From Methylobacter sp. (GTDB lineage Bacteria; Pseudomonadota; Gammaproteobacteria; Methylococcales; Methylomonadaceae), in contig JAQUOU010000005.1 in the NCBI GenBank assembly GCA_028716975.1, positions 1 to 64,000 on the forward strand: DNA of 64,000 nucleotides, read 5' to 3'. A program made the translations under genes and the position numbers. A model generated the notes under the pieces. That model saw only the letters and a list, made by a program, of their open reading frames with translations. It was not told the DNA's origin and ran no database searches. Of the stretch, positions 52,826 through 63,416 are shown one piece after another (position 1 is the first letter of the stretch; each line of letters starts with the position of its first letter).

Positions 52826-53162
52826 ACTCTGATCTTTTTATTATTCCTACAGGCTTTGATCGGTAAAAGCGGCTTTTGTCATGTTGGGCATTCCCAAGAT
52901 TAAACCCTATGCCAATAGAAGAACTCATTTCATAAAAAAGGGTTAATACCACTCATGGCTTTATGTAGAAAAAATAATTTTTTCTACATAAAGCGATAAG
53001 GCGCAGGGCGTATTTCCTTAAAACCCTTATTCAGTCTGAACTCCTTATCTCTTTTCGTTAAAAAACCCAATCCAGCTTTTGCAGAAATTGATCGCCTACC
53101 AAAACACGCCGATCTTTATGTGTTATACAATAACCTCTTATTTCTTATTTACCTCGCCTTCC
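52826..53162. other. Intergenic region with long perfect palindrome
   Basis: About 340 bp between the DUF3616 and SNF2 genes. Its only clear feature is the palindrome at 52959-52993. The open frame of the SNF2 gene extends back to 53079 but probably starts at 53163. Confidence 0.5.
52959..52993. repeat. Perfect 17-bp-arm palindrome
   Basis: CTTTATGTAGAAAAAAT (52959-52975), one A, then the exact reverse complement ATTTTTTCTACATAAAG (52977-52993). With T-rich runs near the centre on both strands it could be an operator, a bidirectional hairpin or the footprint of an element. It lies 134 bp after DUF3616 and 170 bp before the SNF2 start. Confidence 0.8.
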
Positions 53163-56100
53163 ATGGATAAACCGAAAAAACTTCTGCGCTCAGATATACG
53201 CTATGAATGTGGCGACGGCTCTTATGAACGTGGCAGAAGCTATTTCGAAAAAGGCCTGGTAGTAGACCTTGCCATCAAGAGTGAAGGCGTTCTTTTTGTC
53301 CAACTTAATGCTGCTGTCAAAGGCAGCGGCAGAAGTCCTTATAAACAGAATATCCGCATTATATGGCGTCCTGATTTTAGCGCAGCCGAGATTGAGGGTG
53401 ACTGTTCCTGTCCGGTCGGTTTTAACTGCAAGCATATTGCCGCGGCCTGCCTGATGTATCAAAATTCCACCCAGCCGCTAACTTTAGCTCCCATTAAAGC
53501 ACCGAGCTGTTTTGACTGGCTGGATAGTCTTAATGAAAAGTTACCCAAAGACAATAGAGACCATGATTTCATCGTCTATATACTTAAGCCAGGCAAAAAC
53601 AAACATGAAATTATTTTTGAGTTTGTAATTACCAAGGAAAAAAAATCCGGCGGTTTAAGCAAAGGCAGGAAAACCACCCTAAACAATCTGCGCTACAGCT
53701 ATAACTACTTAAATTATATTCAACCGCAAGACGAGGAAATTGCCAAATTGCTCTCTGCATTTAATACCTCTTATATAGGTGAACCCGTACTGGCAGGAGC
53801 TACAGGCTATGTCGCACTAACAAAGTTATTACAAACCGGCCGGCTGTACTGGCAAGATCTTGAAAAACCGCCGTTAAAAATGGGAGCCAAGCGGGATTTA
53901 CGGTTTCACTGGCAACAGCCTGATCAGGATGGTTACCAGTTAAATGTTGAAATAGAACCAGCGGCAATCTTCCTGTTAACTGACCCGCCTCAATACCTGG
54001 ATAACCATTTGGGAATGGTGGGAGGATTTAATACCGCCAATTTTAGCGCGCATCAACTAAAAAAGATTTTATCTGCGCCGCTCATTCCCGCTCAATATGC
54101 TGATGAATTCAGCCAACGATTAATTATTGAACACACAGCCCTACCCTTGCCTACCCCGAAAGAAGTCCGTCTTATCGAACTGAAGGATTTAACACCCATA
54201 CCTAAAATATCCTTATTCGGAAAGCAAACGGGAAATCAGCCTTATCTCCATTTTATTAAAGTGAGCTTTAATTATGGAGAATGGACAGTTCCTGCATTTA
54301 ATTTCGAAGAATACAGCATATTGAAAACAAATCAGGGACTGGTGCGGATTAAACGCGCAATTGAAACTGAATCAGCAGCTATAAAACACCTTACAGATCA
54401 AGGCTTCGCCACTGTCCCACCCGAGGAAATCGGAATACAGGAGCTGGTTCTTTTCATTCCAACCGAAAAAAACAGAATAGCCAGTGCGGCGCGCTGGGGA
54501 ACTTTTATTCAGCACATACTTCCGGAGCTTGAACAGGAAGGCTGGATCATCACTATGGAAGACAGCTTCAGGCTTAATTTTCACAGCGCTCAAAACTGGG
54601 AAGCTGAAATCAGCGAAACTCAGACCGATTGGTTTGAAATACATTTTACCATAGAAATTGATGGCCAGTCTCACTCTTTATTGCCATTGATTATGCCCGC
54701 GCTGGAAAACTACGATCCTGAAAATCTTCCCGATATCCTCAACCTGCCTATCAGTGACCACAATTACCTGACTCTGCCCAGCGATAAGATTAAGCCGTTC
54801 CTGAATATATTGTATGAGCTGTTTAACAGCAGCACACTGGCAAAAGACGGCACTCTTAAACTCTCCCGTTTTAATGTAGCAAGCCTTTCGGACATGGAAG
54901 AGCAAAACGCCAAACTGTTCAAGATAACCGGCGGGAAAGAACTCAGGGAATTGGGGCAAAAATTAAAAAACTTTAACGGAATCAAAGATGTACATTTGCC
55001 TGTTAAGTTTCAGGCAGAACTTCGTAATTATCAGCAGCATGGACTCAACTGGCTACAGTTTTTGCGGGAGTACAAATTTTCCGGCATTCTTGCCGACGAT
55101 ATGGGTTTAGGTAAAACCATCCAAACCCTTGTCCATCTTTTACTGGAAAAACAACAGGGACGAATGACATCACCCTGCCTGATTATCGCCCCCACCAGCC
55201 TGATGAGTAACTGGCGGCGTGAAACCGAACGCTTCACGCCAGACCTACGCGTGCTAACATTACAGGGAACCGAACGCAAACAGTTATTTGATAAAATTAA
55301 AGAGCATGATTTGATATTGACAACTTATCCCTTGCTGCCGCGCGATGAGGAAACCCTGCTGGAGCATGAGTATCATTACCTGATTCTGGATGAAGCCCAA
55401 ACCATTAAAAATCCGCTTTCCAAAGCCGCCCAGATAGTGCGTCATATCAAGTCCACTCACCGGCTCTGCCTAACCGGGACACCAATGGAAAATCATCTGG
55501 GTGAACTTTGGGCACAATTTGACTTCCTGATGCCCGGTTTTTTGGGTGATGGTGCTACTTTTAGAAAGCTATATCGCACGCCTATTGAAATGCATGGCAA
55601 CAATGAGCAAAGATTGCGTTTGTCACGCCGTGTAGCGCCTTTTATGCTGCGTCGTACCAAAGAAGAAGTCGCACGGGAACTGCCGCTTAAGACCGAAATT
55701 ATCCGTTCCGTACCCCTTTATGAACAACAGGCCGCCTTGTACGAAAGCATCCGCCTGACCATGGAGAGAAAAGTCCGCGAGGCAATTGCCCTGAAAGGAC
55801 TGGCCCGAAGTCATATCACCATTCTGGATGCTTTATTAAAACTCCGCCAAACATGCTGTGATCCGCGCACCTTGTCACTTAAAGAAGCGCAAAAACTACA
55901 GGAATCTGCAAAACTCGATTTATTGATGGAGTTATTACCGGAACAACTGGAAGAAGGGCGTCGAATTCTTGTCTTCTCACAGTTCACCCGCATGATTGCG
56001 CTGATTGAAAATGAATTAAACACCCGGCAAATTGGTTATACCAAATTAACCGGCCAAACCCGCAACCGCGACGAAGCCATTGAACAGTTTAAAAGCGGTG

Positions 56101-56417
56101 AGGTGAATGTTTTTCTTATTAGCCTGAAGGCCGGCGGTGTAGGTTTAAATCTGACCGAAGCCGATACCGTCATTATTTATGATCCGTGGTGGAACCCGGC
56201 CGTAGAAACCCAAGCCGCAGACCGGGCGCATCGTATCGGTCAGGATAAACCGGTTTTTGTCTACAAACTGATTACTGAAAATACAGTAGAAGAAAAAATT
56301 CTTGCCATGCAGGAAAGAAAACGCATGCTGGCCGAAAGCATTTATACGAATGGCCCCAAGGAAAAATCATTAAAACTTACCGCTGAAGACCTTACAGCCC
56401 TGTTTGAACCTCTATAA
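53163..56417 (+). CDS. SWIM zinc-finger SNF2 family helicase
   Basis: 1084-residue SNF2 ATPase. An N-terminal SWIM zinc finger (CSCPVGFNCKHIAA, about 84-97) suits DNA or protein binding. A large middle region (about 110-610) is of unclear fold. The C-terminal SNF2 engine has GILADDMGLGKTIQTLVHLL, LILDEAQTIKN, CLTGTPMENHLGELWAQ, LRQTCCDP and the final QAADRAHRIGQDKPVFVYKL. This belongs to the bacterial RapA-unrelated 'SNF2_N plus SWIM' group of unknown target. ATG 53163 (MDKPKKLLRSDIRY) fits better than an in-frame ATG at 53079. MITE copy B starts right after its TAA. Confidence 0.93.
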   Translation: MDKPKKLLRSDIRYECGDGSYERGRSYFEKGLVVDLAIKSEGVLFVQLNAAVKGSGRSPYKQNIRIIWRPDFSAAEIEGDCSCPVGFNCKHIAAACLMYQNSTQPLTLAPIKAPSCFDWLDSLNEKLPKDNRDHDFIVYILKPGKNKHEIIFEFVITKEKKSGGLSKGRKTTLNNLRYSYNYLNYIQPQDEEIAKLLSAFNTSYIGEPVLAGATGYVALTKLLQTGRLYWQDLEKPPLKMGAKRDLRFHWQQPDQDGYQLNVEIEPAAIFLLTDPPQYLDNHLGMVGGFNTANFSAHQLKKILSAPLIPAQYADEFSQRLIIEHTALPLPTPKEVRLIELKDLTPIPKISLFGKQTGNQPYLHFIKVSFNYGEWTVPAFNFEEYSILKTNQGLVRIKRAIETESAAIKHLTDQGFATVPPEEIGIQELVLFIPTEKNRIASAARWGTFIQHILPELEQEGWIITMEDSFRLNFHSAQNWEAEISETQTDWFEIHFTIEIDGQSHSLLPLIMPALENYDPENLPDILNLPISDHNYLTLPSDKIKPFLNILYELFNSSTLAKDGTLKLSRFNVASLSDMEEQNAKLFKITGGKELRELGQKLKNFNGIKDVHLPVKFQAELRNYQQHGLNWLQFLREYKFSGILADDMGLGKTIQTLVHLLLEKQQGRMTSPCLIIAPTSLMSNWRRETERFTPDLRVLTLQGTERKQLFDKIKEHDLILTTYPLLPRDEETLLEHEYHYLILDEAQTIKNPLSKAAQIVRHIKSTHRLCLTGTPMENHLGELWAQFDFLMPGFLGDGATFRKLYRTPIEMHGNNEQRLRLSRRVAPFMLRRTKEEVARELPLKTEIIRSVPLYEQQAALYESIRLTMERKVREAIALKGLARSHITILDALLKLRQTCCDPRTLSLKEAQKLQESAKLDLLMELLPEQLEEGRRILVFSQFTRMIALIENELNTRQIGYTKLTGQTRNRDEAIEQFKSGEVNVFLISLKAGGVGLNLTEADTVIIYDPWWNPAVETQAADRAHRIGQDKPVFVYKLITENTVEEKILAMQERKRMLAESIYTNGPKEKSLKLTAEDLTALFEPL

Positions 56418-56704: not shown

Positions 56705-58681
56705 ATGAAAAATTACATGCCGCCTATTGAAATCTTCTCTAAAAACAGCTATTCGCCTTATGAATTCAAAAAAAGTCTCTGGCTTCGCTCGCCCAGACTC
56801 ATTATTTTTACTATTGTCTTTTTGATCAGCGCCGCTATCGGCCTGACCTACATTTACAGCCGGCCCGCTATTTACCGAAGCAGTGCAACGCTGTTAACCT
56901 CGGCAATGACAGCCATAGACCGCGAAAGCAGCGTAGCCGATATTCAGCATGTCGCTATTCAAAAACAAATTTTACTGGGCCACGAACTTATCGTTGAAAC
57001 TTTATCGCGGCTTAAAGCCTTGATCACGAATGAGTCCGATCCCGTGCAACAGCTCACCGTAGCAGATATTCGTAAGCTGCTGAATGTAGAACCTGTCGCC
57101 GAAACCAATCTGGTTGAAATCCTGGCAGAAGGCACTGATCCTGAGTTTTTGCCCCGGCTTATCAATACCTGGACTGAAGTTTACCTGGACGCCCGCGCTG
57201 CAGAAGTCAAAAAATTAACTGACAATACGAGTCGTATTATTGAAGACGAGTTGAAAGGGCTGACTGAAGAAATCAACTCGGCCAGGGCGGAATTAGAAAC
57301 TTTCAGGAAAAATAACGATATTTCATCCACAGGACGAAATGAAAATGAAGCACTAGCCCGCCTTAAAGGTTTAAATGATTCTTTAAATACCGCCAGTGAA
57401 GAAGAAGTCAAGGCAAAGGCACAACTTGATGCTATTAAATCAGCCATTTCCCGTAACCAGGCAGTAGTTCCGGATTATGAACAAGGCAGTCTGCAGGATC
57501 TTGAAAAACGTTTACAGGAATTACGCGAACAACTGGCCGAATTTGATAAAAAATTTACCCGCGACTATTTAAATAAACAGCCCGCCTTAAAATTTGTCCC
57601 GGAACAAATTAAAAAGCTTGAAGCTGAAATCAATAAAAAACATGTTTATGGTAAAAGCATTGTACTGACTGATGCAGAAAACAAGTATGCCGCTGCAAAA
57701 CAAACCGTTATAGCGATTCGCGCCCAGCTTGATGCTCATAAAAAACTGGCGGCTGAATTTACTTCAAAATTTGCCGAGCACGAAACTTTAAAAACTGATT
57801 TGGAAGGGTTGGAAAAGCTTTACCGTGATACGCAAGAACGATTAGTACAAATCGAAACCAGCCACAAAGAAAAATACCCGCAAGTAACCGTTATAAATCA
57901 GGCTTATGTGTCGCGGGATCCGGTAAGGCCGAATTATAGCCGGGATGCCGCTATTGCTATAGCAGGCTCTTTATTATTGGGGCTTTTCAGTGTCTGGATC
58001 TTCGAGTATTTAACCCGGAAGCCGGAGGAGTTGCAGTCGCCCGTTACGCTTTCCGGTATTCATATGTACAATCCTAGTTCAGAAATGCTTAATTATAGCC
58101 AGACTGCTCCTAAACCTCTGGAGCAGAAAAAAAACAATGCCTTGAAAAGCCCTTTATATCGGGAACTTTCCACTTCCCAGTTGAAGACTATACTTAAGGC
58201 TTCAAATCTCAAAACCAAACAATTTATCAGTTTATTACTGAGTGGACTCAGTATTGATGAAGCTACATATTTAAAAGCTGACCAGATAAATATGGAAAAA
58301 GGAACTATTACCCTTACCGGCCCAGTGCCAAGAATTATTACTATTAATCATTTACTTAAATCTTTATTTGAACAATCCGGCGGCCATCCTGCCTGGAATG
58401 CAGACAATCCAAACTCATCTGAGGATCTCGCCGCCTCTCTGCTGTGTGCTGCCATTGATTCCGGTTTATCTAATCCCATGGAAATTACCGCTGAAGCCAT
58501 TCGACATAGCTATATCGCTTATCTTGTTCGGCAGGGGCTGCGTCTATCCGATCTTGATCTCATTGTGGGTTACTTGGCGCCATTTGCTATTTCCACCTAT
58601 AGCGCCTACTCCACGCCGGAACAAGGCCGTGCTATTGACGACATAGAATTATTACACCCCGCATTGATAGATATTGCTTAA
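56705..58681 (+). CDS. Wzz/GumC-type chain-length protein fused to a pseudo tyrosine-recombinase domain
   Basis: 658 residues. The first membrane segment (about 32-54) is followed by a Wzz-type periplasmic part (about 55-410) with long coiled coils, the family PVRPNYSRDAAIAIAGSLLLGLFSVWIFEY motif (read in two parts) giving the second segment at about 415-440. Such proteins control polysaccharide chain length. Residues about 485-640 read as a tyrosine-recombinase catalytic domain: LLLSGLSIDEATYLKADQIN, ITLTGPVPRIITI, EAIRHSYIAYLVRQGLRLSD and AISTYSAYS. The first Arg is Ser516 and the His of HxxR is Glu597; Arg600 and Tyr635 persist. It is therefore probably inactive and cytoplasmic. The fusion is unusual. 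Confidence 0.82.
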   Translation: MKNYMPPIEIFSKNSYSPYEFKKSLWLRSPRLIIFTIVFLISAAIGLTYIYSRPAIYRSSATLLTSAMTAIDRESSVADIQHVAIQKQILLGHELIVETLSRLKALITNESDPVQQLTVADIRKLLNVEPVAETNLVEILAEGTDPEFLPRLINTWTEVYLDARAAEVKKLTDNTSRIIEDELKGLTEEINSARAELETFRKNNDISSTGRNENEALARLKGLNDSLNTASEEEVKAKAQLDAIKSAISRNQAVVPDYEQGSLQDLEKRLQELREQLAEFDKKFTRDYLNKQPALKFVPEQIKKLEAEINKKHVYGKSIVLTDAENKYAAAKQTVIAIRAQLDAHKKLAAEFTSKFAEHETLKTDLEGLEKLYRDTQERLVQIETSHKEKYPQVTVINQAYVSRDPVRPNYSRDAAIAIAGSLLLGLFSVWIFEYLTRKPEELQSPVTLSGIHMYNPSSEMLNYSQTAPKPLEQKKNNALKSPLYRELSTSQLKTILKASNLKTKQFISLLLSGLSIDEATYLKADQINMEKGTITLTGPVPRIITINHLLKSLFEQSGGHPAWNADNPNSSEDLAASLLCAAIDSGLSNPMEITAEAIRHSYIAYLVRQGLRLSDLDLIVGYLAPFAISTYSAYSTPEQGRAIDDIELLHPALIDIA

Positions 58682-62408: not shown

Positions 62409-63416
62409 TCAGTTGCGCTTTAACCCTTTGGCACACCTATAAGGTGGATTTCCCTGACAAATTCCCCAAAATTTACCAAAATCGCCTTCATCATTGGGCT
62501 TCCAGCTTTCCGAAAAGGCTTCAAATACTACGCCGGACCAGTTTCTTTCAGCCAGTTTTTTAAAAGTATCCTGCACAACTATCCTTTGATTTTTCTGACT
62601 CGCAACATCGCAAGGCTGCCCCGTGCGTTTATTGATTTCAGTTTGTCCTTCGGGGCCATTTGGCCAGCCGAATTCAGTCACAATAACGTCCTTGCCGGAA
62701 TAAACGCGCCGAATATCTTCAAGCCGGGCAATATGAAAATCAGCGGCTTTTTTTGCCGGAGTGCAGGGAAATATGCCTGAATATTTATTTTCCCACCAGG
62801 GAAAAATATTGGTGCCTATCCAATCGACGCTTTTGCCAAAACTACTTGGCTGGCAAGGATAAGCCCGATTGCACCATTCCCACCAGATATCGATTGTCGT
62901 AACCGGTTGCGGCACACCGGCTTTGTGAAGACTGTCGATGCAACGCATGATTTCTCCATCAAATGCATAACCGTGACGGGTTCGCACTTCGGAGCCACAA
63001 CTCAGCTTAACTATGGTTTTCGGAAATGCCTTTGCAACCTCAATGCCTTCACTAATGGATTGTGAATTAATTGCCACATCGTCATCCAGCCACAGAATTG
63101 CAATAACCTTGATATGCCGTGCTTCCGCCGCGGCAAAAGTATAGTCCAGCCCGTTTAAAACGCCGTAAGTCATGATGCAGCGAAAACCGGTTTCCTTAAT
63201 CAATTTATCCAGCAGTTCATCAATCAATTCCCGGGATGGATGAGCGCCATAATCGGGGCTGAGCTTTCCCACATACGGGCTGAAAGCGGCGCATTGCAGC
63301 GCGTCTTTTTTACTGTTTTGGATAGTTTGAAGCGCGGTTGATTTTTTACGTGCCGATACAGTGTGGCAATTCATTAACAATATGGAAACCACAATCAACA
63401 AAAGAAAATGCTTCAT
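62409..63416 (-). CDS. Secreted GH17-family beta-1,3-glucanase-like protein
   Basis: 335 residues with a signal peptide (about 1-22). The GH17 barrel shows FSPYVGKLSPDYGAHPSREL, LSCGSEVRTRHG where the acid/base Glu is expected (usual GNE is GSE), IGTNIFPWWENKYSG and VIVTEFGWPNGPEGQ with the nucleophile Glu. SGVVFEAFSESWKPNDEGDF corresponds to the family ending. Unlike the gene at 22559 it has no membrane tail and should be periplasmic or secreted. It probably acts on beta-1,3-glucan; cleavage versus transfer is unclear. Confidence 0.83.
   Translation of the reverse strand: MKHFLLLIVVSILLMNCHTVSARKKSTALQTIQNSKKDALQCAAFSPYVGKLSPDYGAHPSRELIDELLDKLIKETGFRCIMTYGVLNGLDYTFAAAEARHIKVIAILWLDDDVAINSQSISEGIEVAKAFPKTIVKLSCGSEVRTRHGYAFDGEIMRCIDSLHKAGVPQPVTTIDIWWEWCNRAYPCQPSSFGKSVDWIGTNIFPWWENKYSGIFPCTPAKKAADFHIARLEDIRRVYSGKDVIVTEFGWPNGPEGQTEINKRTGQPCDVASQKNQRIVVQDTFKKLAERNWSGVVFEAFSESWKPNDEGDFGKFWGICQGNPPYRCAKGLKRN

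Follow-up and report, generated by a model that had tools for sequence, protein, structure and literature searches.

A putative polysaccharide co-polymerase of Methylobacter with a C-terminal tyrosine-recombinase-like domain that lacks most catalytic residues

Known polysaccharide co-polymerases (PCPs) either have no domain in the cytoplasm or carry a tyrosine kinase. A gene of a Methylobacter sp. (56705-58681, + strand, of the window, the 64,000-nucleotide stretch of contig JAQUOU010000005.1 that was analysed) raises the question of why a protein of this type should end in a domain related to DNA recombinases. The initial annotation had read the gene as a Wzz-type chain-length regulator joined to a decayed XerD-type recombinase. 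We found no relevant description of a fusion between a Wzz or chain-length determinant protein and an integrase in the open-access literature. The family described below would represent a conserved and ancient pseudo-recombinase variant, and thereby a further solution to what a PCP carries on its cytoplasmic side.

Architecture and fold of the fused protein

The open reading frame (ORF) is complete, with neither stop codon nor frameshift, encodes 658 amino acids, and is the single match to the fused gene within its own genome. In the full-length AlphaFold model, transmembrane helix 1 (residues 30-52; 56792-56860, +), preceded in the sequence by K/R at residues 22-31, and transmembrane helix 2 (residues 411-437; 57935-58015, +) flank a periplasmic part with an alpha/beta base and long coiled-coil helices (residues 53-410; 56861-57934, +), the arrangement of a PCP with two transmembrane helices. 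A linker of about residues 441-481 (58025-58147, +), poorly conserved and predicted to be disordered (pLDDT <50), leads to the C-terminal domain (residues 482-658; 58148-58678, +). From this topology the C-terminal domain is predicted to be cytoplasmic, where the initial annotation had also placed it. The global pTM of the full-length model was 0.41, as expected of a long flexible monomer; therefore, we used the folds of the domains alone and disregarded their relative placement.

The N-terminal half matched the NCBIfam profiles TIGR03007 (3e-22) and EpsF (1.7e-15), which jointly span residues 32-445, both below their equivalog cut-offs (78.5 versus 278.85 bits for TIGR03007). When the whole model was searched with Foldseek, its first part was matched to Wzc (E 1.9e-9), KpsE and WzzE, and its second part to Xer recombinases. 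By profile and model, then, the protein is best described as an inner-membrane PCP of the Wzz/Wzc type and a putative chain-length regulator, in agreement with the initial annotation.

The best Foldseek matches of the full model were the Wzc structures 9r64 and 7nhr. Like Wzc and other PCP-2a proteins, which are fused to a BY-kinase, the protein has two transmembrane helices, a periplasmic alpha/beta base, long coiled helices, and a globular cytoplasmic domain at the C-terminus. In Wzc, however, that domain is a P-loop tyrosine kinase followed by a Tyr-rich tail, whereas the fused protein has a pseudo-recombinase and no such tail. Neither sequence profiles nor structural searches gave a kinase match for the C-terminal domain; tyrosine recombinases were matched instead. 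A further difference from Wzc is that no OPX (Wza) gene lies near the fused gene in this genome. TIGR03007, the PEP-CTERM/XrtA determinant, and EpsF are the nearest profile matches of the N-terminal half, but they differ from the fused protein at the C-terminus, and no XrtA/EPS cluster was seen adjoining the fused gene.

Taken by itself, the sequence evidence for kinship of the C-terminal part with recombinases is moderate: Pfam Phage_integrase at 6.8e-4 (under the gathering score), NCBIfam XerA at 1.6e-5, and the Xer structure 4a8e in the PDB at 6.5e-5. When the domain was modelled alone with 46 relatives, AlphaFold returned a pLDDT of 90.8 and a pTM of 0.88. Foldseek matched this model to XerA (5hxy, E 5.5e-7), and VIA-align placed the archaeal Xer structure 4a8e first (Z 15.6, 158 residues); nearly all of the other rows listed were integrases, Cre, MrpR/SroF or topoisomerase IB. 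With such values the match to recombinases is not a matter of chance. The predicted fold is that of a tyrosine-recombinase catalytic domain, which bears out the kinship to XerD-type enzymes proposed earlier. The domain shares with Xer and XerA this fold, the order of the motifs, and the second catalytic arginine and the tyrosine. It differs from them in its missing catalytic residues, its acidity, its anchoring in the membrane through a PCP, and the absence of a core-binding domain, in place of which only the disordered linker follows transmembrane helix 2.

Loss of catalytic residues across the family

We scored the catalytic columns on 71 family rows, which comprise the domain of the window beside segments from relatives and include near-duplicates, with 38 real integrases from the same searches as the control. 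The Arg-I column held Arg in 37 of the 38 integrases but in none of the 71 family rows (Ser516 in the window protein). His-II, present in all 38 integrases, was likewise absent from all 71 (Glu597). These two columns confirm the substitutions at catalytic Arg and His that had been noticed in the initial annotation, which overlooked two more losses: the beta-hairpin Lys, found in 38/38 integrases, is deleted in 71/71 family rows, and His-III, also invariant in the integrases, is retained in only 13/71, with Tyr623 in the window protein. Four of the six members of the catalytic set R-K-H-R-H/W-Y are thus missing from the window protein. Arg-II (R600) and the catalytic Tyr (Y632) were kept in 70/71 and 67/71 rows, respectively.

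A loss shared by the whole family marks the domain as a pseudo-enzyme. Judged from the alignment, it appears to be catalytically dead as a family trait and not through local decay. Other positions are strongly conserved: His601, directly after Arg-II, in 64/71 rows and Glu519 in 70/71. Residues K/R505, R609, Q610 and K/R613 are conserved in the family yet absent from integrases, and a proline in the tail (Pro652) was found in 45 of 46 members.

Distribution, history and genomic context

The fusion was found in about 100 sampled genomes, mostly from lineages of methane and ammonia oxidisers. A domain profile search of the order to which the window belongs recovered the fused architecture in 60 of 201 genomes; family members scored E 5e-31 or better and ordinary integrases E 4e-10 or worse, a clear separation. 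In the ammonia-oxidiser family that contains Nitrosospira, 35 of 81 genomes had it, among them 22 of the 23 from the genus of Nitrosospira sp. Nl5. It was also present in 7 of 36 genomes of another family (f99) and in a few further families. Of the named carriers, three belong to Methylobacter (Methylobacter marinus A45, Candidatus Methylobacter favarea and a MAG) and one is Nitrosospira sp. Nl5. The search for other fusions proposed with the initial annotation thus yielded many relatives.

Purifying selection acts on both halves (omega 0.05-0.26 by the Nei-Gojobori method, several pairs having high dS), and pairwise distances in one half track those in the other (Mantel r 0.82; 0 of 2000 permutations). 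A domain that is intact, conserved in this many genomes and under purifying selection is not aptly called decayed.

We built a tree from the PCP half, with distant PCPs as its root. All unfused copies (n = 12, sampled from one genus, g11) formed one nested clade in it, with a support of 0.945. This nesting indicates one ancestral fusion and one later clean loss of the domain. No remnant integrase ORF was found 3′ of the unfused copies. The unfused clade also shows that some PCPs of this family can do without the domain. In the same tree the Nitrosospira-type copies (L033, L171-L174) nest among the Methylobacter-type copies, which suggests that the whole fusion may have been transferred horizontally from methanotrophs to ammonia oxidisers.

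A strict tie to methane or ammonia monooxygenase was rejected, as PF02461 (monooxygenase A) was found in some carriers and was absent in others. The genome of the window (G000) has no PF02461 match in its assembly, though its relatives are named Methylobacter; this may be an assembly gap or a real loss.

Across 40 neighbourhoods of the fused gene, no shared polysaccharide operon was seen and neighbours were lineage-specific, so that a function based on a common operon was rejected. Neighbours include an SNF2 helicase, a family-2 glycosyltransferase, a sterol desaturase-like protein, an ABC exporter with a PHP protein, and genes of RND efflux size. The glycosyltransferase lies directly 3′ of the fused gene at four loci (L109, L114, L115, L190) but not in the window. 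Directly 5′ of the fused gene the window has a SWIM/SNF2 helicase gene (53079-56417, +), which is likewise upstream at L109, L113 and L114. At L117, L118, L185 and L186 (families f4 and f6), an ABC exporter (ABC_membrane and ABC_tran in L118) and a PHP-domain protein are encoded directly 3′ of it. GH17-like proteins (beta-1,3-glucanase type; sub-cutoff in Pfam) are encoded near the fused gene in some genomes, for example at 62409-63416 (-) in the window and at 3641-5347 of L112. No Rfam elements were found within the window.

The genome of the window has four other Wzz-type genes, of which those on contigs C13, C33 and C9 are close to a Wza-type export gene. No such export gene was found on the contig of the window. 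With neither a fixed operon nor a Wza-type export gene on its contig, the fused protein looks like an additional stand-alone co-polymerase.

Possible roles of the domain

The initial annotation had raised the possibility of a regulator that binds either protein or nucleic acid. If the latter, the domain might be a membrane-tethered DNA-binding regulator that couples the status of envelope polysaccharide to transcription or to chromosome position. The prophage regulators MrpR/YopR and SroF, which are among the structural matches (Z 10.9-11.7), reuse the tyrosine-recombinase fold non-catalytically, and MrpR still binds DNA although it is no longer catalytic (PMC10516654); the fused domain keeps Arg-II and Tyr. 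Those regulators, however, are soluble repressors that bind DNA and possess a core-binding domain, and they have no relation to polysaccharide export. In addition, the net charge, judged by composition and alignment column rather than from a computed surface, was negative in all 70 family domains (mean -5.8, range -12 to -1), with no overlap with 38 integrase domains (mean +6.8, range 0 to +16), and of the roughly 18 columns in which integrases are basic, the family has kept a basic residue at just two, R543 and R600. The acidity, the lost basic columns and the missing core-binding domain together disfavour nucleic-acid binding, and a DNA-binding regulator seems unlikely to us. The newly conserved basic residues K/R505, R609 and K/R613 leave room for a small new patch, which could bind nucleic acid or membrane. 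Overall, we think it likelier that the domain binds protein or mediates oligomerisation than that it binds DNA; the protein part of the earlier proposal is preferred, and its nucleic-acid part is not.

The persistence of Tyr632, Arg600 and His601, together with Glu519, could also be explained by a residual phosphotransfer-type activity or a phosphorylatable switch, in which Tyr632 is phosphorylated or binds phosphate and stands in for the tyrosine tail of Wzc. We consider this quite improbable: the same residues make up the structural core of the fold, the remaining catalytic residues are all missing, and the protein has no kinase domain. There is at most a slim chance that the domain is a passive passenger, an old fusion kept for stable folding that aids membrane insertion or stability without a specific function. 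Its clean loss in the g11 subclade with retention of the PCP, and the lack of a conserved neighbour gene, would fit such a passenger, but the domain is under purifying selection comparable to that of the PCP half, has specific invariant residues, and was retained across several families and after the apparent transfer to Nitrosospira. An artefact, whether two adjacent genes wrongly joined or an integrase inserted in a PCP gene, has practically no chance of being the explanation, because the identical junction recurs in about 100 genomes, single-contig ones included, the sole contrary sign being a frameshift in the copy of an incomplete genome (G025). Conservation and dN/dS led us to reject both artefact and pseudogene.

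The explanation that we favour, and hold to be probable, is an inner-membrane PCP with a dead tyrosine-recombinase fold at the position of the kinase in Wzc. We infer that this domain has abandoned the handling of DNA and acts as a protein-protein module. It seems that the cell envelope has put a fold of DNA enzymes to a different use. As far as we found in the open-access literature, this is the first instance in which a membrane-envelope function has taken over a tyrosine-recombinase fold that gives no sign of binding DNA.

Tyrosine recombinases such as Xer and Cre form rings, and their C-terminal segment docks on the adjacent subunit. The cytoplasmic kinase domains of Wzc build an octamer, with the C-terminal tail of one subunit inserted into its neighbour (PMC8285477). 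Given these two kinds of docking, a dead recombinase could replace the kinase as a ring-forming or partner-binding element. Contacts of the recombinase type between neighbours might assemble the co-polymerase ring, with the C-terminal peptide of one protomer docked on the next; the conserved Pro652 in the tail fits this idea but does not prove it, and the AlphaFold model, being of a monomer, does not show a swap between protomers. Alternatively, the domain might serve a polysaccharide pathway with genes elsewhere in the genome, by recruiting one of its cytoplasmic enzymes or regulators. More tentatively, and with considerable doubt, one may think of a new class of PCP in which a dead recombinase replaces the kinase as the element of ring assembly or regulation, the contacts of the recombination synapse being reused to build or gate the export ring.

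Within one genus, some of the sister proteins have the domain and others lack it, which provides a natural experiment, and cultured strains exist (Methylobacter marinus, Nitrosospira). In the unfused relatives (L229-L239 and L122, genus g11), a short conserved tail resembling RLRRADDPKQLPDE stands where the recombinase domain would be.
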